In this document: positions 1-7,950 of the stretch, piece after piece
Layout of the letters: each line of letters begins with the position of its first letter
Numbering within the stretch: position 1 is the first letter of the stretch
NCBI GenBank assembly: GCA_018667995.1
Contig: JABIQT010000397.1
Coordinates: 1-7,950, forward strand
Direction of reading: 5' to 3'
Source: Candidatus Latescibacterota bacterium
Lineage (GTDB): Bacteria > JAAXHH01 > JABIQT01
DNA length: 7,950 nucleotides
Notes under the pieces: generated by a model
Database searches by the model: none
What the model saw: only the letters and a program-made list of their open reading frames with translations
What the model was told of the DNA's origin: nothing
Position numbers and translations under genes: made by a program

Positions 1-48
1 CCCGAACCTTCCTCCTCCAGGCGATATGTGTTCCGGGAGCAGTACTAA
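1..48 (+). CDS. C-terminal tail of probable 2-oxoacid dehydrogenase E1 alpha subunit (5' end outside window)
   Basis: Reading from base 1 gives 15 codons, PEPSSSRRYVFREQY, then TAA at 46-48. The PEP-x5-YVF spacing matches the usual end of E1 alpha subunits, which close with a P-D/E-P segment followed five residues later by Y-V-F/Y. The position immediately before an E1 beta gene on the same strand is exactly where E1 alpha sits in split-E1 operons. The tail is 57 bases from the E1 beta start and lies in the same frame, separated also by a TAG at 94-96. The call rests on a short match plus context, so it is tentative; another protein ending by chance in this way cannot be excluded. If it is right, this subunit would carry most of the thiamine-diphosphate diphosphate-binding site. 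Confidence 0.6.
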   Translation, partial: PEPSSSRRYVFREQY

Positions 49-105
49 CCCTCGACCGTATGCAAGAACCTACGGAAAATCAGTCCCTATAAATAGAAAC
101 CGCCC

Positions 106-1098
106 ATGACTCAGGAAATTCTAAGAGAAATCACTTTTTCGGATGCCACCCTAGAGGCGCTTTCCGAAGAAATGGCTGGCGACCCATCTATCTTTGTTGT
201 TGGTGAGGGCATCGGACCACGCGGTGGCAATTTCAAGACCACTGTAGGGCTCTATGAGAAATATGGAGCACTACGGCTCTGCGATACTCCGATCGCAGAG
301 AGAGGATTTGTAGGGCTGTGCATTGGTGCGGCCATGGCCGGCGCTCGACCCGTCGCTGATTTTATGTTTGTGGATTTCATCCTTGACGCCATGGGCGAGA
401 TTGTAAATCAGGCCGCAAAGATTCAGTATATGTCGAGCGGACGTTTGACAATGCCCTTGGTGCTGAGAGGGTGCATGGGGGCGGGAAACTCCACGTCCAC
501 ACACCATTCCGGGAGCTACTATTCCATGTTCGCTCATATACCAGGACTCAGGGTCGCGGTGCCATCCAATCCATATGACGCTAAGGGATTACTCAAGACG
601 GCTATTCGAAGCGATGACCCGGTGGTATTTCTTGAGCATAAATTACTGCTGAATCAACAGGGACAGGTCCCGGATGGTGAATATACGGTACCCTTTGGGA
701 AGGCTGACATCGTGCAGCCCGGAAACGATGTCACCGTTGTGGCTCTATCTGTTATGGTGTGGCATGCCATCGAAGCGGCGAATGAGCTGACTCAAGACGA
801 TATCAGTATAGAAATCGTGGACCCGAGAACGGTGGCTCCCCTGGATGTGGACACGATCCTGGAGTCCGTAAGAAAGACGGGCCGTCTTCTGATTGTAGAG
901 GAGTCATACGGCCCTTGCGGAATTGGATCGGAGATTGCCGCTCAGGTCCAGGAGAGAGGATTTGACGATCTTGACGCACCTGTTTACAGGTTGAATGGCG
1001 CGCACACCCCCGTACCCTATAGTCCCCCGCTTGAGCAGGATGTGATTCCCAATTCCGAGACGATTATCGAGGCGGTCCGCAACTTACTCGCAGAGTAA
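106..1098 (+). CDS. 2-oxoacid dehydrogenase E1 component, beta subunit (pyruvate/acetoin/branched-chain type)
   Basis: This is the beta half of a thiamine-diphosphate-dependent E1, which decarboxylates a 2-oxoacid and passes the acyl group to the lipoyl arm of E2 in a cytosolic complex. At 330 residues it has normal family length. The pyrimidine-binding domain fills roughly residues 5-180, with the DTPIAERGFVG segment at 60-70 holding the Glu (E65) expected to activate the cofactor. The YMSSG and PLVLRG segments follow. H134, in THHSG, aligns with the active-site His of the usual QHSQ motif, but the following Gln is Gly. The C-terminal transketolase-type domain (about 195-325) shows the VDPRTVAPLD and LLIVEES motifs. 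ATG 106 is the first start after an in-frame TAG at 94-96; no clear Shine-Dalgarno precedes it. The E2 gene follows after 15 bases. Substrate (pyruvate, acetoin or branched 2-oxoacid) cannot be decided from sequence alone. Confidence 0.93.
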   Translation: MTQEILREITFSDATLEALSEEMAGDPSIFVVGEGIGPRGGNFKTTVGLYEKYGALRLCDTPIAERGFVGLCIGAAMAGARPVADFMFVDFILDAMGEIVNQAAKIQYMSSGRLTMPLVLRGCMGAGNSTSTHHSGSYYSMFAHIPGLRVAVPSNPYDAKGLLKTAIRSDDPVVFLEHKLLLNQQGQVPDGEYTVPFGKADIVQPGNDVTVVALSVMVWHAIEAANELTQDDISIEIVDPRTVAPLDVDTILESVRKTGRLLIVEESYGPCGIGSEIAAQVQERGFDDLDAPVYRLNGAHTPVPYSPPLEQDVIPNSETIIEAVRNLLAE

Positions 1099-1099
1099 C

Positions 1100-1104
1100 G
1101 GGGA
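1100..1104 (+). promoter_or_regulatory. Probable ribosome binding site for the E2 gene
   Basis: GGGGA lies just after the E1 beta stop codon, 9 bases before ATG 1114. It supports the chosen E2 start and translation from the same message as E1 beta. Confidence 0.5.
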
Positions 1105-1113
1105 ACTACCACA

Positions 1114-2418
1114 ATGGCCTACGAGATCTACATGCCCCACATTGGTTGGGAGCGCATCCGGTTGCTGAAATGGTTGAAGCAGGATGGCGATCAGATTTTG
1201 CGGGGCGATCTTGTTGTCATGGTCGGCAATGATGACCGGACGAGAAACATCGAGGTCTTTGAAACCGGTACGCTAAAGATTCATCCTGCTGCTCCAGAGC
1301 CAGGGATGGGGCTTACTGATGGGGTGTTGTTGGGATATGTGGTACCGGAGAACGAGATCGGCGTCTTCCAAGTACCCCTGTCTGAGTCCGACGAGATTAT
1401 GGCTCAGATCTCATCGAGCCTTGAGATCGTCGAATCGGACCAGGCCAACACTGGGCCGGAACCGAAACGTCGTCGTGCTATCAGCCCACGGGCGCGGAGA
1501 ATTGCCCACGAATTGGGATTTGTATGGGAGGATGTAGAAGGCACAGGAAAGTCTGGACGTATTGTCGAGCGAGATATACGTGCGGCTTTCGATGGTGTCG
1601 CTCCAAAGGCGCTTCCCGGTTCCGGCAACAGATCCTTGACAGCTGGCAATAGTGGAAACAATCTAGCATTTGAGCCGCCGGCGCAGACAGATCGAGAAGC
1701 GCCGGCTATACCAAATGGCGGACTGGACGGCGACATTCGAGCGTTGCCCATGAATGCGATTCGTCAGGTGATCGCCGAGCGGATGTCGATCAGTGCGCAC
1801 ACCACTACACCTGTTACACTCACCACCGAAGTAGACGCAACCGAACTCGTACTGTTAAGGGAGAAATATGTAACCGAGCAGTGGGACCCAGTGCCTGCTT
1901 ATCACGATATCTTAATGAAATTGGTCGCTGATTCGCTACGGGGCTGTCCGGAGTTGAACACGGCGTTGATTGAAGGCAATATAGTTCAGCACGACTTGGT
2001 CAATATTGGCGTGACGACTGATACGGAACGGGGCTTGCTCGTACCTGTTGTGCACGACGTTCGGAGTAAGTCTTTGCAGGTGATCGCGGAAGAATCAGCT
2101 AAACTGGTGGAGCAGACTCAGGCAGGCACGCTTCCTCTGGATAAGTTGCGGGAAGGTACGTTTACGATTACAAATCTCGGCATGTACGACATTGATGCAT
2201 TCACGCCGATCATCAATCTGCCTGAATGCGCGATACTCGGGGTCGGAAGAATTGTACCCAAAGTCGTAGTCGTGGATGAACGCACCTTAACGACGGGGAT
2301 TCGCAGAATTATGGCATTGAGTCTCACGTTCGACCACAGATTGGTTGACGGTGGGCCCGCTGCCAAATTCCTTCAGACGTTGAAATCCCTCATCGAGAAA
2401 ACGCAGGAAATCCTGTAA
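1114..2418 (+). CDS. 2-oxoacid dehydrogenase E2 (dihydrolipoamide acyltransferase) lacking the lipoyl-lysine
   Basis: E2 forms the core of the 2-oxoacid dehydrogenase complex and transfers acyl groups from its lipoyl arm to CoA. Three domains are visible in 434 residues. The lipoyl/biotinyl-type domain (about 1-88) starts MAYEIYMPHIGWERIRLLKW and keeps the GD-x6-G turn and the E-T/S-G-T/V-L strand. The peripheral-subunit-binding domain (about 121-160) has SPRARRIAHELG and GTGKSGRI. The acyltransferase domain (about 208-434) has TFTITNLGMYDIDAF and the catalytic FDHRLVDGG, with H408 and D412. A poorly conserved Gly/Pro/Asn-rich linker spans 161-207. The oddity is in the lipoyl hairpin: gap-free alignment to the usual D-K-A puts D41 at the lysine position, in NDDRTRNIEVFETG, and no lysine occurs between K22 and K55. 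This is the reverse of E3-binding protein/protein X, which keeps lipoyl-Lys but loses the catalytic His. The E2 identity is firm; ordinary lipoylated function is doubtful. Confidence 0.9.
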   Translation: MAYEIYMPHIGWERIRLLKWLKQDGDQILRGDLVVMVGNDDRTRNIEVFETGTLKIHPAAPEPGMGLTDGVLLGYVVPENEIGVFQVPLSESDEIMAQISSSLEIVESDQANTGPEPKRRRAISPRARRIAHELGFVWEDVEGTGKSGRIVERDIRAAFDGVAPKALPGSGNRSLTAGNSGNNLAFEPPAQTDREAPAIPNGGLDGDIRALPMNAIRQVIAERMSISAHTTTPVTLTTEVDATELVLLREKYVTEQWDPVPAYHDILMKLVADSLRGCPELNTALIEGNIVQHDLVNIGVTTDTERGLLVPVVHDVRSKSLQVIAEESAKLVEQTQAGTLPLDKLREGTFTITNLGMYDIDAFTPIINLPECAILGVGRIVPKVVVVDERTLTTGIRRIMALSLTFDHRLVDGGPAAKFLQTLKSLIEKTQEIL

Positions 2419-2425
2419 ATCGGGG

Positions 2426-3433
2426 TTACTCCAACGCCTCGACCACGATTAATTCGTCAATTCCACTCTGTATGTTGATCGTGTTCCTAAGTGGCTTGCC
2501 CATCCCTTCCCAAGCGACAGTCATCGTATCACCATCTACTAACTTCACGCCCTCCCCGAAACTGAAAGCGTCTGCTCCGTAAAAGTACACGTGCGCATCC
2601 CCCGGATTCCTGTGGACGTTGTACTTGAAATGGTGGTGCTCGAGATTTGCCAGCGAGTGGGACATGTTCGACTCACCTGTATGAACTTCTTTGCACCAGA
2701 GCACGGCCCCATCCCTGTGAACACTTACTTTCCCTGCGATATCATCGAATTTCCCACCCACGATCAATTCAGGCCCAATGGCACAGGTTCGCAGTTTTGA
2801 CGGCGCAAGATAGAGATAGTTGGTCTTCTCCAGGATATGGTCCGAGAATTCATTTGCAGTCATGAATCCAATTCTACGCGGCTGACCTTCTGCATCAACG
2901 ATGTAAGCGCCGGCGACCTCTGGTTCCTCGCCGCCATCGTCCGCGAAGATTGGTACCTCGAGTGCATCAAGGTGTCCTCGCAGGATGCTTCCATGCCCTT
3001 TGTAGAACCACTCTGGCTGTACACCCACAGTACCGTGAGCAGGTCTACCCCCCTCCACTCCCCATTCGTAAATCTGCATACTGTCTGTTACGTCTTCGTG
3101 GCCGGCATCTTCGTGCATGGCCTGCCTGTTTGCAGCACTCGCGCGATGAGTAAGACCCGTACCTGATACGAGACATGAGTTCGGTTCGGTCGGGTGATCG
3201 AAGGCAGGAAGGAAGGACCAGCCCGTCGATCCCGAGTAAATGGGCTCATACTTCATTCGCTCGGTGGTTGCATCCTCTCTCGCAATATCTTCTATTCGAC
3301 GTCCCTTATCCATTGCTGCAGTGGCTAGTTCGTAGACGGACTGATGACTATTCAGCCTTCTGAGATAATCGTCCTCAACGATAGCCACACAGCGTCCATA
3401 CATACGGTGCGTCAGTTGGACCAGACGTAACAT
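2426..3433 (-). CDS. AraD1/GguC-like protein of the fumarylacetoacetate hydrolase (FAH) fold
   Basis: The 335-residue protein matches, from memory of the family, the AraD1/GguC group throughout: LVSGTGLTHRASAANRQAMH (88-107), GVQPEWFYKG (137-146), EFSDHILEKTNYLYLAPSK (195-213), RTCAIGPEL (215-223) and SLANLEHHHFKY (260-271). FAH-fold enzymes bind a divalent metal through an E-x-E pair and a later acidic residue; E170-P-E172 and D198 are the likely ligands. AraD1 members are annotated as acting on 2-keto-3-deoxy sugar acids such as 2-keto-3-deoxy-L-arabonate (dehydration), while GguC is associated with sugar-uptake loci; the true substrate here is unknown. No signal peptide, so probably cytosolic. 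The ATG is preceded by GAAAGG five bases upstream. It is the last gene of the minus-strand run, 30 bases after tex, and ends 7 bases from the convergent E2 gene. Confidence 0.85.
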   Translation of the reverse strand: MLRLVQLTHRMYGRCVAIVEDDYLRRLNSHQSVYELATAAMDKGRRIEDIAREDATTERMKYEPIYSGSTGWSFLPAFDHPTEPNSCLVSGTGLTHRASAANRQAMHEDAGHEDVTDSMQIYEWGVEGGRPAHGTVGVQPEWFYKGHGSILRGHLDALEVPIFADDGGEEPEVAGAYIVDAEGQPRRIGFMTANEFSDHILEKTNYLYLAPSKLRTCAIGPELIVGGKFDDIAGKVSVHRDGAVLWCKEVHTGESNMSHSLANLEHHHFKYNVHRNPGDAHVYFYGADAFSFGEGVKLVDGDTMTVAWEGMGKPLRNTINIQSGIDELIVVEALE

Positions 3434-3438
3434 AGGCG

Positions 3439-3444
3439 CCTTTC
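3439..3444 (-). promoter_or_regulatory. Ribosome binding site of the AraD1-like gene (GAAAGG)
   Basis: On the minus strand GAAAGG lies five bases before the ATG at 3433-3431. The same hexamer and spacing precede tex, which supports both starts and suggests the usual Shine-Dalgarno of this genome. Confidence 0.6.
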
Positions 3445-3463
3445 AGATGACAGGTGACGGGCG

Positions 3464-5809
3464 TTACAACTTACCGTATTTGCCCATAAGGTCATTGATC
3501 GTTCCCGTCTTACCGGAAGAGCCTTCGGCTGCTTTCGCCCTTTTCTTTTCCGAGATATTGTGATCATTCGCCGTCGTGCCCTGCTGTTTTTTTCCGCCCT
3601 GTCGGCGGCTATTGTCCCTCGGTTTCTTCTTCTTCTCAGTCCGAGCTCCAGATCCTTCACGATTGTCGGGCGCACCGCCGTCGTCACGCATGGAAAGGGA
3701 TATTCTCCGACGATCCATATCAACGCTGAGGACCGTTACCTTGACCTTCTGATTGACCTTGACGACCTCGCTCGCATCCTTCACAAAGCGATTGGCCAGC
3801 TGGCTGATATGCACCAGGCCATCCTGATGGACACCAACATCGACAAAGGCGCCAAATGCGGTAACGTTGGTGACGACGCCCTGCAGTTGCATGCCGGCCT
3901 TCACGTCATCAATATTCATAATGCCATCGGCGAAGGTCACCGTCTCAAACTCATTCCGTGGATCACGACCAGGCCGCTTCAGTTCTTCGATGATGTCCTG
4001 AAGGGTCGGCATTCCAATAGTGTCTGTGGTGTACTTCTCAAGTTCTATCTTCGATCTCAACGCATCGTCCTTCAAAAGAGCAGAAAGATCACAGCCCAGA
4101 TCCTGAACCATTCGGTCGATGGTATCATAGCTCTCTGGATGTACACCGCTACCGTCCAAGGGATTTTCCCCGTTCTGGATTCTGAGAAATCCTGCGGCTT
4201 GCTCAAATGCCTTGGGTCCAAATCTGGGTACCTTCAGCAATCCGCTGCGTGAATCAAAAGGCCCATTTTCTTCGCGATAGGCCACGATGCTCTGTGCCAG
4301 GTTAGGCCCCACACCGGAGACATAGGCGAGGAGGTCCGGACTGGCGGTATTCAGCTCGACACCCACATTATTCACGCAGCTTACCACGGTATCGTCCAGG
4401 CTGTGTTTCAATGCGGCCTGATCCACGTCGTGCTGGTACTGCCCGACTCCAATTGATTTCGGATCGATCTTGACAAGTTCAGCCAGCGGATCCATCAGAC
4501 GCCTTCCGATTGATACGGAACCCCTGACGGTCAGATCGTGATCTGGAAATTCCCTTCGTGCCGTCTCGGACGCAGAGTAGATGGAAGCGCCGGCTTCGTT
4601 GACCAGAACGGTGATCGGTTTGCCAGGAATTTCCAGAGCCCGTACAAATGTTTCAGTCTCTCTACTGCCTGTACCGTTACCAATTGCAATGGCCTCGATT
4701 CCGTATTTTTCGCAGAGCGTGCAGAGCGTAGTGCCAGCCTCTGCCCGCTTCTTATCGCCTGTATGAGGAAAAATCGTATCCGTATGAAGTAGTTTGCCCT
4801 GACCATCCAGACACACCAGTTTACAGCCCGTCCGTAAACCTGGATCAAGGGCCAGGACATTCTTTGATCCCAAGGGCGCAGCGAGAAGCAACTCGCGAAG
4901 GTTCTCGGCAAAAACTATGATGGCCTGGGCGTCCGCGCGGTCCTTGGAACTAGTTCGGATCTCGGTTTCCATGGATGGCGAGAGTAGCCGTTTGTAGCCA
5001 TCTTGAACGGCAAGCCGAACCTGGTCTGAGGCCTTGCTCGTGCCGGTAACAAATTGACCTTCTAGGATGGCGACCGCCGCCGACTCGTCGGGCGTCAATG
5101 TGAGACTGAGAGCCTCCTCTGACTCCCCACGCCGCATGGCAAGAATGCGATGGGAGGGGGCATCTTTTATCGTTTCCTCCCACTCGAAGTAGTCCTTGAA
5201 TTTCGTCCCCGTGGTTTCTTTCCCGTTCATTACTTTGGATCGGATGAGACCCTTGGTACTGAACAGTTCGCGCATGCGCTCCCGGGCTTTCTGATCCTCG
5301 CTAACCCATTCCGCTATAATATCCCTGGCTCCAGCCAGCGCGTCATCAATCGAGGCGACTTCCTTCTCGGCGTCCACGTAGGCTTCTGCCAACACAACAG
5401 GATCGTTTTCGTCCTGCAAGTAAAGCTGCTGCGCCAGAGGTTCGAGGCCCTTCTCTTTCGCAACAGTCGCCCTGGTACGTCTTTTGGGTCGATAGGGAAG
5501 ATAGATGTCCTCAAGGTTGGTAAGTGTCTCCGCGGCATTGATTTGACTCTTCAGCTCGTCCGTGAGGAGTTCTCGATCCTCCAGTGACTTGAGTATGGCC
5601 TCACGCCGTTTGTCAAGTTCACGTAACTGAGCCAATCGGTCGCGTATGGCCATGATCGCGACCTCATCCAGCGACCCGGTTACCTCTTTTCGGTACCGGG
5701 CGATGAACGGCACGGTCGCCTCGTCGTCAAGAAGGCCTGCCGTGGCCTGGACCTGCTGAATCTTAATACTAAGTTCGCCCGCAATGATTGATATGTGTTG
5801 CTCTAGCAT
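3464..5809 (-). CDS. tex: Tex family transcription accessory protein (S1 RNA-binding)
   Basis: Tex is a cytosolic nucleic-acid-binding protein linked to transcription and RNA handling in many bacteria; its precise role is still unclear. At 781 residues it has full family length. The N-terminal helical Tex region (about 1-310) includes VPFIARYRKEVTGSLDE (33-49) and EDIYLPYRPKRRTRA (100-114). The YqgF/RNase-H-like domain (about 315-445) has LALDPGLRTGCK with D322 and VNEAGASIYSASE at 403-415. The helix-hairpin-helix region (about 455-560) includes VGQYQHDVDQ and NTASPDLLAYVSGVG. The S1 domain spans about 636-706 (GVVTNVTAFGAFVDVGVHQD, HISQL, RISLSM). A Lys/Arg/Ser/Gly-rich tail of about 75 residues follows and is probably disordered. 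The start is set by GAAAGG five bases upstream of the ATG. It lies 19 bases after the aminotransferase stop and 30 bases before the AraD1-like gene, so it is likely co-transcribed with metabolic genes. Confidence 0.96.
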   Translation of the reverse strand: MLEQHISIIAGELSIKIQQVQATAGLLDDEATVPFIARYRKEVTGSLDEVAIMAIRDRLAQLRELDKRREAILKSLEDRELLTDELKSQINAAETLTNLEDIYLPYRPKRRTRATVAKEKGLEPLAQQLYLQDENDPVVLAEAYVDAEKEVASIDDALAGARDIIAEWVSEDQKARERMRELFSTKGLIRSKVMNGKETTGTKFKDYFEWEETIKDAPSHRILAMRRGESEEALSLTLTPDESAAVAILEGQFVTGTSKASDQVRLAVQDGYKRLLSPSMETEIRTSSKDRADAQAIIVFAENLRELLLAAPLGSKNVLALDPGLRTGCKLVCLDGQGKLLHTDTIFPHTGDKKRAEAGTTLCTLCEKYGIEAIAIGNGTGSRETETFVRALEIPGKPITVLVNEAGASIYSASETARREFPDHDLTVRGSVSIGRRLMDPLAELVKIDPKSIGVGQYQHDVDQAALKHSLDDTVVSCVNNVGVELNTASPDLLAYVSGVGPNLAQSIVAYREENGPFDSRSGLLKVPRFGPKAFEQAAGFLRIQNGENPLDGSGVHPESYDTIDRMVQDLGCDLSALLKDDALRSKIELEKYTTDTIGMPTLQDIIEELKRPGRDPRNEFETVTFADGIMNIDDVKAGMQLQGVVTNVTAFGAFVDVGVHQDGLVHISQLANRFVKDASEVVKVNQKVKVTVLSVDMDRRRISLSMRDDGGAPDNREGSGARTEKKKKPRDNSRRQGGKKQQGTTANDHNISEKKRAKAAEGSSGKTGTINDLMGKYGKL

Positions 5810-5814
5810 GAGTA

Positions 5815-5820
5815 CCTTTC
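5815..5820 (-). promoter_or_regulatory. Ribosome binding site of tex (GAAAGG)
   Basis: GAAAGG on the minus strand sits five bases before the tex ATG (5809-5807), inside the 19-base gap after the aminotransferase stop. This supports the start and argues against an internal promoter between the two genes. Confidence 0.6.
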
Positions 5821-5828
5821 GTGATGTG

Positions 5829-6914
5829 TTAACCGGCTATGGACTGCTCAATGACATCGAGGCCCTCGGTAACGAGTTCCATCTCTGCCTGAGAGCCCAT
5901 GTGACCGATTCGAAATACCTTGCCTGCCAGTGGTCCGAACGCACCGCCAACCGCGAGGCCAAGTTTCCTGAATTTTGTGTTTAGAGTGTCCCAATCCTGC
6001 CCATGCGGTACTTGGATGACCGTAACGGTGGGGGCGGAGCTGCTTTCCTGTCTGGGAAAAATCGATAGTCCCATTGATTCAATTCGTTGTCTGCAATAGG
6101 CTGCAACACGCTCGTGTCGGGCTATCGCCGCGGCCAGGCCCTCGGCTATGATCAGCCCACATGCGATACTGAGGGAAGCCGTGCTGTGCCACGATGGCGT
6201 GTACGGAAACCATGAGTTCGCCAGGGCGCTGCGCCATGGCTTGAGTGCGTCATATCCCCGATAATCTATTTTCTCAATGATCTCCCATGCGCGATTACTT
6301 ACAGAGACCAGGGCCATATCAGGGGCCGCCGAGAGACATTTTTGTGAACCCCCGAGGCAGAGGTCTATACCCCAGGCATCGGTAGCCAGTGGTGTGCCTC
6401 CTGCACTTGCCACAGCATCTACATAGAACAGGGGTACCTGGTACTTTTTCACCAGTTCGCCTATTTCCCCGATGGGGTTCAATGTTCCTGAAGGCGTTTC
6501 GCAATGAACCGCAGTGATCATTTTTGGCTGGAATTCTTTGATGGCTGCTTCCACTGTATCACTGTCGGCTATACAGTCATACTCGAATCCGACAGTCTTC
6601 ACACGGGCGCCCAGGCCGGCGGCCATTTCGCTGAATCCGTATCCGAAGATGCCGGATGCCACGGACAGTACTTTGTCGCCCGGTACGATGCAGGATTTCA
6701 TGGCTCCCCAAAGACCTGCCATACCTTCACCGGTCATGATCGCAAACTGATTCTTGGTTTGGAAAATGTGCTGTAGCTGGCTTTGCGTCTCGGCATATAA
6801 ATCGCTATACTCGGGCTCCAAATCACCAGAACCGTAATCTGTAAGATATGCCTCAAGCACAGATTTCGGGACTCGCGTTGGCCCTGGTATTAGCGGTATC
6901 GGGTAGGTTTTCAT
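5829..6914 (-). CDS. Class V PLP-dependent aminotransferase (alanine-glyoxylate / pyridoxamine-pyruvate aminotransferase type)
   Basis: This is a fold-type I, class V aminotransferase of 361 residues, a normal length, with no signal peptide. It opens with the family's IPGPTRVP (9-16). ASGIFGYGF (86-94) forms part of the cofactor site, and CETPSGTLNPIGE lies at 138-150. D166 in YVDAVASAGG should pair with the PLP ring nitrogen, and K192 in GSQKCLSAAP should form the Schiff base. R335 in FRIGHMG matches the Arg that binds the substrate carboxylate. Family members transfer amino groups from alanine, serine, 2-aminoethylphosphonate or pyridoxamine to glyoxylate or pyruvate. The RIGHMG and FPYTPS (236-241) segments recall pyridoxamine-pyruvate aminotransferase as well as bacterial alanine/serine-glyoxylate enzymes, so substrate is left open. 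A GAGG four bases before the ATG (6919-6922) supports the start. tex follows after 19 bases. Confidence 0.9.
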   Translation of the reverse strand: MKTYPIPLIPGPTRVPKSVLEAYLTDYGSGDLEPEYSDLYAETQSQLQHIFQTKNQFAIMTGEGMAGLWGAMKSCIVPGDKVLSVASGIFGYGFSEMAAGLGARVKTVGFEYDCIADSDTVEAAIKEFQPKMITAVHCETPSGTLNPIGEIGELVKKYQVPLFYVDAVASAGGTPLATDAWGIDLCLGGSQKCLSAAPDMALVSVSNRAWEIIEKIDYRGYDALKPWRSALANSWFPYTPSWHSTASLSIACGLIIAEGLAAAIARHERVAAYCRQRIESMGLSIFPRQESSSAPTVTVIQVPHGQDWDTLNTKFRKLGLAVGGAFGPLAGKVFRIGHMGSQAEMELVTEGLDVIEQSIAG

Positions 6915-7021
6915 GATACCTCGCCGGGGAGCATGGGAGCATGGAATGACATGGTCATGATTTCTATATTCCGAACAACGGAGATAACCCTCAAGGAATT
7001 CAATCGATCACGTATTAATGT
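6915..7021 (-). other. 107-base gap between the SelA-like gene and the aminotransferase gene
   Basis: This is the largest non-coding gap in the minus-strand run. It carries the aminotransferase Shine-Dalgarno (GAGG, 6919-6922), a short inverted repeat ATGAC-ATG-GTCAT (6946-6958) and two tandem copies of GGGAGCAT (6927-6942). I see no convincing -35/-10 pair with normal spacing and no GC-rich hairpin followed by a T-run on the minus strand. It could hold an unrecognised promoter, so whether the SelA-like gene shares a transcript with the rest is undecided. Confidence 0.5.
6927..6942. repeat. Two tandem copies of GGGAGCAT
   Basis: Two perfect head-to-tail 8-base copies (6927-6934 and 6935-6942) followed by GG. 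They lie a few bases upstream of the aminotransferase Shine-Dalgarno on the minus strand. They are short enough to be chance or replication slippage; no function is inferred. Confidence 0.4.
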
Positions 7022-7950
7022 CTATGGTACATGGCGTAGTAGATTGCGGACCGTATCCCCTATCGTCGCTGGTTCCCCGCTCTTCAAGCACATGGGGCCG
7101 AATAGAATAACTCCTTCGCCAGCCCGCGACGGATTAGCGTGGATACTGGGATTGCCCTCCTGCAACCGAATGACCACATCAAGGGCGGAGCATCCCAATT
7201 CCTGCTCATCCAATGTCAACTGAACCATTGGTACGTGGGAGGTACGTCTGTCGGCCAGCTCTTCTACTACAGTTCCGGGAATATCCTGTAGGGCCAAAGA
7301 CAGTTCCGTAGTTACGGACCGCCATCTTTTGAAACGTTCGTCCTCGGGTTCCGCAACGAAGCGACGGAGCGCTGTCAGTAGCCCCACAATCTCCTCTTTA
7401 CCAACTTTACAGGGACGCCCGATGCCATGCTGAGGCGCACCCGGTAGCCTGTTCTTATCAATAAGGCCAGGTGGCGGCGACCATTGGTCGAAGTAGATAT
7501 CCTGGTCCAAGTGCTGCAAAGCGACCGACATGATCAGATCTCTTCGCCCCGCGAGTATTCCTGAACTTTGGGGCCCGCCGATGGTTTTGCCGCCACTGAA
7601 TGCGACGAGGTCCGCTCCCAGGGCAATATAGTGACTCAGGTTACTTGCGGGCGGCAATTGGCCCGCCGCATCCACAATTACAGGAACGCCTCGGTCATGG
7701 GCTGCATGTACTACTTCATCGAGAGGAGGCAGAGCCTGCGGACCCGCAACGTAACAGACAGCAGCTGTCCGATCGGTGATGGCATCGGCTATCTCCCATG
7801 CTTCGGTATCCCTCACACCTGCGCCGCTAAAGCGGTCTGCCAGTCCAATTTCGACGAGCTTTATTCCGACTGAACGAACCGCGTGGTCGTAGAAATTACG
7901 CTGGCTCCGGGAGATGATTATCTCATTTTTCATGCCACGGGTGTTGGGTA
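7022..7950 (-). CDS. SelA-like PLP-dependent enzyme (selenocysteine synthase / D-glucosaminate-6-phosphate ammonia-lyase superfamily), 5' partial
   Basis: This is a fold-type I PLP protein of the SelA-like group. The reading frame stays open to the window edge: codons before the first visible ATG (7933) read P-N-T-R-G and continue into NEIIISRSQRNFYDHAVRS, the usual interior of these proteins, so the true start lies beyond 7950 and perhaps 60-90 residues are missing. Counting from the visible Met, D88 in VIVDAAGQLPP should bind the PLP ring nitrogen and K116 in FSGGKTIGGPQSSG is the Schiff-base lysine. GIGRPCKVGKEEIVGLL (171-187) is also typical. Such enzymes act as ammonia-lyases or dehydratase-like enzymes on amino sugar acids and related amino compounds; genuine selenocysteine synthase is a relative, and I see no selB or tRNA-Sec here, so that role is unlikely. 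Location upstream of an aminotransferase suggests a catabolic role. Confidence 0.85.
   Translation of the reverse strand, partial: PNTRGMKNEIIISRSQRNFYDHAVRSVGIKLVEIGLADRFSGAGVRDTEAWEIADAITDRTAAVCYVAGPQALPPLDEVVHAAHDRGVPVIVDAAGQLPPASNLSHYIALGADLVAFSGGKTIGGPQSSGILAGRRDLIMSVALQHLDQDIYFDQWSPPPGLIDKNRLPGAPQHGIGRPCKVGKEEIVGLLTALRRFVAEPEDERFKRWRSVTTELSLALQDIPGTVVEELADRRTSHVPMVQLTLDEQELGCSALDVVIRLQEGNPSIHANPSRAGEGVILFGPMCLKSGEPATIGDTVRNLLRHVP

Follow-up and report, generated by a model that had tools for sequence, protein, structure and literature searches.

An E2 acyltransferase-like protein of a Latescibacterota bacterium with aspartate at the lipoyl-lysine position and constraint lost mainly on its lipoyl face

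The operon and its E2 gene

The window, by which we mean the whole stretch of 7,950 nucleotides that was analysed (GenBank assembly GCA_018667995.1, contig JABIQT010000397.1, positions 1 to 7,950 of the forward strand), stands at the start of a contig (C9) of a Candidatus Latescibacterota genome of 6.06 Mb in 1165 contigs, estimated to be 85% complete and 4% contaminated. Its first three genes follow the order E1alpha-E1beta-E2 that is also found in orthologues, and the E2 gene is the subject of this report. The features are as follows.

1..48, + strand: 3' end of the E1 alpha gene, 15 codons plus the stop, truncated at the contig start (likeness of the C-terminus, gene order)
106..1098, + strand: E1 beta (NF006667 subfamily, PRK09212; 381 bits, above cut-off)
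1114..2418, + strand: E2 dihydrolipoamide acyltransferase-like protein, 434 aa without internal stop
1114..1371, + strand: degenerate lipoyl domain, residues 1-86 (orthologue alignment gapless except for a 2-residue deletion; Biotin_lipoyl, PF00364, just 13.1 bits, cut-off 22.1)
1135..1164, + strand: beta1-beta2 surface loop, residues 8-17, with the 2-residue deletion (GWNMEEGTL to GWERIRL; orthologue alignment)
1219..1257, + strand: lipoyl hairpin, residues 36-48, DKA to DDR, Asp41 codon at 1234-1236 (sequence, alignment, AlphaFold2 model)
1468..1596, + strand: E3/E1 peripheral subunit-binding domain, residues 119-161, intact (E3_binding, PF02817, 40.7 bits)
1735..2415, + strand: catalytic acyltransferase domain with HxxxDG, H408 and D412 (PF00198, 224-226 bits)
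2426-3433, - strand: GguC/AraD1-family protein, convergent with the E2 gene
7022-7933, - strand: DgaE/SelA-like PLP enzyme, N-terminal part apparently missing (profile matches start at position 99-110)

The peptide encoded at 1..48, PEPSSSRRYVFREQY followed by a stop, resembles the C-termini of orthologous E1 alpha subunits such as PDGGTADRHVYRETT. E1 beta retains 141 of its 147 conserved sites and has a branch of normal length. The GguC/AraD1 gene lies close to the operon both here and in G013, the genome that carries the nearest orthologue of the E2 (52% overall identity), and the DgaE/SelA-like gene probably continues beyond the contig end. In relatives, the E1alpha-E1beta-E2 operon is followed by polyketide-synthase-like genes or fragments (G004, G009 and G012; loci L141, L142 and L143) or by PhyH-type dioxygenases (G013 and G001).

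In gene order, domain order, catalytic core and binding domain, the protein agrees with the pyruvate/branched-chain/acetoin-type E2s of Latescibacterota and Chloroflexota E1alpha-E1beta-E2 operons (MPRLGWTMEEG...DKA). H408, D412 and G413 are invariant across the clade, and the structural matches retrieved by Foldseek are ordinary E2 catalytic cores, with nothing further on the lipoyl face; no relatives were found among viral contigs. The protein thus has the HxxxDG catalytic domain, the subunit-binding domain and the co-encoded E1 expected of a dihydrolipoyllysine-residue acyltransferase, and has no lipoyl domain with a lipoylatable hairpin lysine. Judged from its sequence, it is an E2 that misses one defining feature and matches in its remaining domains. 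Its frame is open over 434 codons, with none of the disruption that would mark a pseudogene; the initial annotation was correct in describing the binding domain and HxxxDG as preserved and the gene as free of stops and frameshifts.

A lost lipoyl lysine on an altered lipoyl face

Alignment, site counts and branch lengths together show a loss, lysine included, that is restricted to the lipoyl face. The aspartate at the lipoyl-lysine position had been reported in the initial annotation, with coordinates and residue numbers that prove correct: codon 1234-1236 is GAC (Asp41), the preceding codon is GAT (Asp40), and from GD (31-32) to GTL (52-54) the protein aligns with its orthologues without gaps (GDLVVMVGNDDRTRNIEVFETGTL against GDLVCTIEGDKATMEIESFETGTL), which places Asp41 at the lysine. 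A profile of the lipoyl domain aligned with solved lipoyl domains is likewise gapless across the DKA motif. In an AlphaFold2 model built on 11 input sequences and of modest overall confidence (mean pLDDT 69, lipoyl domain about 67-86 per ten-residue block), residues 39-42 (N-D-D-R) form the turn joining strands 33-38 and 43-47. Residues 23 to 54, flanked by K22 and K55, include no lysine, as had also been stated, and an alternative lysine at the hairpin tip is ruled out by both alignment and model. In the E2 of Bacillus stearothermophilus, a shift of the lysine by one position is enough to abolish lipoylation (PMC6270654).

The change extends to the beta1-beta2 loop, where the initial annotation had missed a 2-residue deletion and several replacements; in the alignment, GW--ERIRL stands in place of GWNMEEGTL. 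This loop sits beside the lipoyl-lysine turn, and together with the residues flanking DKA it forms a determinant of E1 recognition (PMC6270654). The Latescibacterota and Chloroflexota orthologues all have the lipoyl lysine and an intact loop, whereas the present E2 has neither. Inspection of the alternative frames by eye does not recover the motifs, so that a frameshift with later compensation, in either loop or hairpin, is unsupported.

For site counts, the lipoyl face was taken as residues 8-17 and 36-48, and sites kept in at least 85% of the clade were counted as conserved. On this footing the E2 departs from the clade at 8 of 14 conserved sites on the face; elsewhere the count is 2 of 17 for the remainder of the lipoyl domain, 1 of 17 for the binding domain and 10 of 71 for the core. 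The differences of the face from the core (p=0.0013, Fisher) and from the rest of the lipoyl domain (p=0.018) are descriptive only, because the face was picked from known biology after the alignment had been seen. Pairwise identity on the face is 64-88% among the other members as against 28-36% between the query and any member, and identities in the core are the same with the query (43-59%) as without it (43-60%) to within a percentage point. In these alignments the lipoyl face is normally the best-conserved part of the protein. Divergence is ordinary in the remainder of the lipoyl domain, as it is in the binding domain, the core and E1 beta.

Branch lengths, taken from a fixed tree with 63 sequences, exhibit the same distribution. 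The query branch takes up 8.6% of the tree length for the lipoyl domain (bootstrap 5.4-13.1%) versus 3.2% for the binding domain plus core (2.7-3.7%), and the query ranks first of the tree for the ratio between the two; for E1 beta its share is 3.3%. Because the branches for the binding domain plus core and for E1 beta are normal, the excess lies in the lipoyl domain alone. Codon-position GC bias is retained in the lipoyl part of the gene. From this composition, from the open frame and from the preservation of binding domain and HxxxDG we argue that the gene is still in use. The pattern looks like a targeted loss of lipoyl-arm function in an E2 gene still under selection, and changes of this depth and pattern speak against a mere sequencing error or one isolated point mutation.

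Distribution of the change and the lipoyl machinery of the genome

The change is confined to one genome among those compared. Our phylum sample comprised 16 Latescibacterota genomes, in which the source genome is the sole member of its family, and lysine occupies the lipoyl position in 14 of 14 orthologues from the others. A wider set of 103 relatives from Chloroflexota, Latescibacterota, Planctomycetota and other groups includes 97 with a properly aligned residue, every one of them lysine; the remaining 6 have a gap there or come from a misaligned fragment. No clade sharing aspartate at this position was found among the 16 phylum genomes or 80 genome-contig loci. Since lysine is present in all aligned relatives, the change to Asp41 is, on these alignments, private to the source lineage and not a clade trait.

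This outcome bears on the suggestion in the initial annotation that the E2 is a maintained variant, for which it had asked whether a clade with the same operon shares the change. Because the homologues carry lysine, a shared, conserved variant is no longer tenable. The absence of the lipoyl lysine and the notion that the variant is maintained are supported: it is chiefly the lipoyl face that has lost constraint, and the core, binding domain and E1 beta are normal. The observation on the E2 is thus confirmed and its earlier interpretation partly supported, on the basis of a single draft genome.

The source genome carries LipA, an LplA/LipB-family protein (C469) and GcvH. Besides the E2s on C305, C899 and C55, each of which has the lysine, a PF00364 profile search matched a biotin carboxyl carrier protein (BCCP; C100) and a fragment of the biotin type with EAMKM (C220). 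The E2 on C899 belongs to an AceE-AceF-Lpd operon, that on C55 stands with an OGDH E1 and is cut by the contig end, and that on C305 is a further E2. E1s of their own probably serve these other E2s (AceE for C899, the OGDH E1 for C55). It had been proposed that the lipoyl arm may come from another protein. Other lipoylatable E2s do exist, but neither a free-standing lipoyl protein nor a lipoyl-E3 fusion was found by the profile search of this 85%-complete genome. A lipoyl carrier of the GcvH type was considered and set aside, there being one ordinary GcvH only.

Several other loci of the genome touch on the same enzymes. An E1alpha-E1beta pair without an adjoining E2 (C1046; L145) could use the E2 of another complex. 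E1-alpha-like genes without an obvious neighbouring E1-beta are present on C361, C485 and C1157 (L146, L147 and L148), one of them adjoining phosphoglycerate kinase. On C469 (L150), the LplA/LipB-family gene and a ketosynthase (PKS) gene share a strand and overlap or adjoin each other.

How the altered complex might work

A complex of this kind can only run on an arm lent by another protein, have a different job, or be dead. We tentatively prefer the first of these. The E2 is orthologous to the E2 of an E1alpha-E1beta-E2 keto-acid dehydrogenase complex; it has lost the lysine and the face recognized by E1 and by the ligase, and has kept the fold, the binding domain and the core. Through its binding domain it would still assemble E1 and E3, and it may still pass acyl groups to CoA; these acyl groups would come from lipoyl groups provided in trans on another E2 (C305, C899 or C55).

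The model for such an arrangement is found in Actinobacteria, where the E2 domain of OdhA is served in trans by the lipoyl groups of AceF (PMC10415282). Both systems combine an E2 catalytic domain without its own lipoyl-lysine with other lipoylatable E2s in the genome, but OdhA/KGD has no lipoyl domain and is an E2o-E1o fusion polypeptide, whereas the E2 described here is encoded separately from E1 and retains its own binding domain along with a degenerate lipoyl domain. The E3-binding protein (protein X, PDHX) is comparable as an E2 paralogue with part of the E2 functions. It is the opposite case, in that PDHX keeps its lipoyl domain and has lost acyltransferase activity, whereas the present protein keeps the HxxxDG core without the lipoyl lysine.

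By this analogy, use by the E2 core of lipoyl groups supplied in trans is a reasonable proposal that we would not yet call probable. It is favoured by aspartate where 97 of 97 relatives have lysine, by change confined to the face of a gene without stops, and by the presence of a lipoyl pathway and three lysine-bearing E2s. Against it, those E2s probably have their own E1s, the E1-recognition loop of the present E2 is altered as well, a gene may be inactive and yet unbroken, and the source is a draft genome that is the sole member of its family. With the same reserve, we consider that the E2 may be maintained with its lipoyl domain turned into a non-lipoylated structural module, its alpha2beta2-type E1 and the E2 using borrowed arms or no lipoyl, independently of OdhA-AceF.

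Alternatively, the complex may be superfluous and inactive, and its functional loss under way, with the lipoyl face lost first and E1 beta and the E2 core still unbroken. The occurrence of the change in a single genome that has other keto-acid dehydrogenases would fit such a history, as would the E1 beta and core branches, which also rank among the longer ones. We nevertheless regard it as rather less likely than a borrowed arm: the E2 and E1 beta are free of stops and frameshifts, constraint on the core and binding domain is normal, and the large excess in the lipoyl domain makes a very recent loss unlikely. Across so much change a neutral gene would, we infer, have accumulated stops.

A different job, in which the protein would either hold E1 and E3 as a scaffold or act as an acyltransferase with another acyl donor, the E1 product or electron acceptor being different, would account for the alteration of both lysine and E1-recognition loop beside a retained binding domain and core. 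Because PKS or PhyH genes adjoin the operon in relatives, products besides bulk acyl-CoA are conceivable, and the complex may supply a starter or extender unit. We think this role unlikely, however, since HxxxDG is retained, PKS linkage is not seen beside the source-genome copy, and no E2 that functions in the absence of lipoyl groups is known to us. An assembly or consensus artefact of this metagenome-assembled genome, to which 1165 contigs, 4% contamination, a position at the contig start and a single sequence copy would lend themselves, is the least probable explanation and quite improbable, because it requires an in-frame 6-base deletion and many substitutions in two segments that are neighbours only in the folded domain, in a gene whose frames and codon-position composition are intact and whose nearby GguC gene is common to G013.

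Lipoylation of E2 is regarded as indispensable, and when the accessible literature was searched for naturally occurring E2s that lack a lipoylatable lysine, the actinobacterial OdhA-AceF system was the sole exception found. The protein would also carry a warning for annotation, as a pipeline could label its gene an ordinary dihydrolipoyllysine acyltransferase. If the supply of lipoyl groups in trans is true, this E2 would be a second, independent case, one in which the degenerate domain is still attached, and would show how such an arrangement starts.
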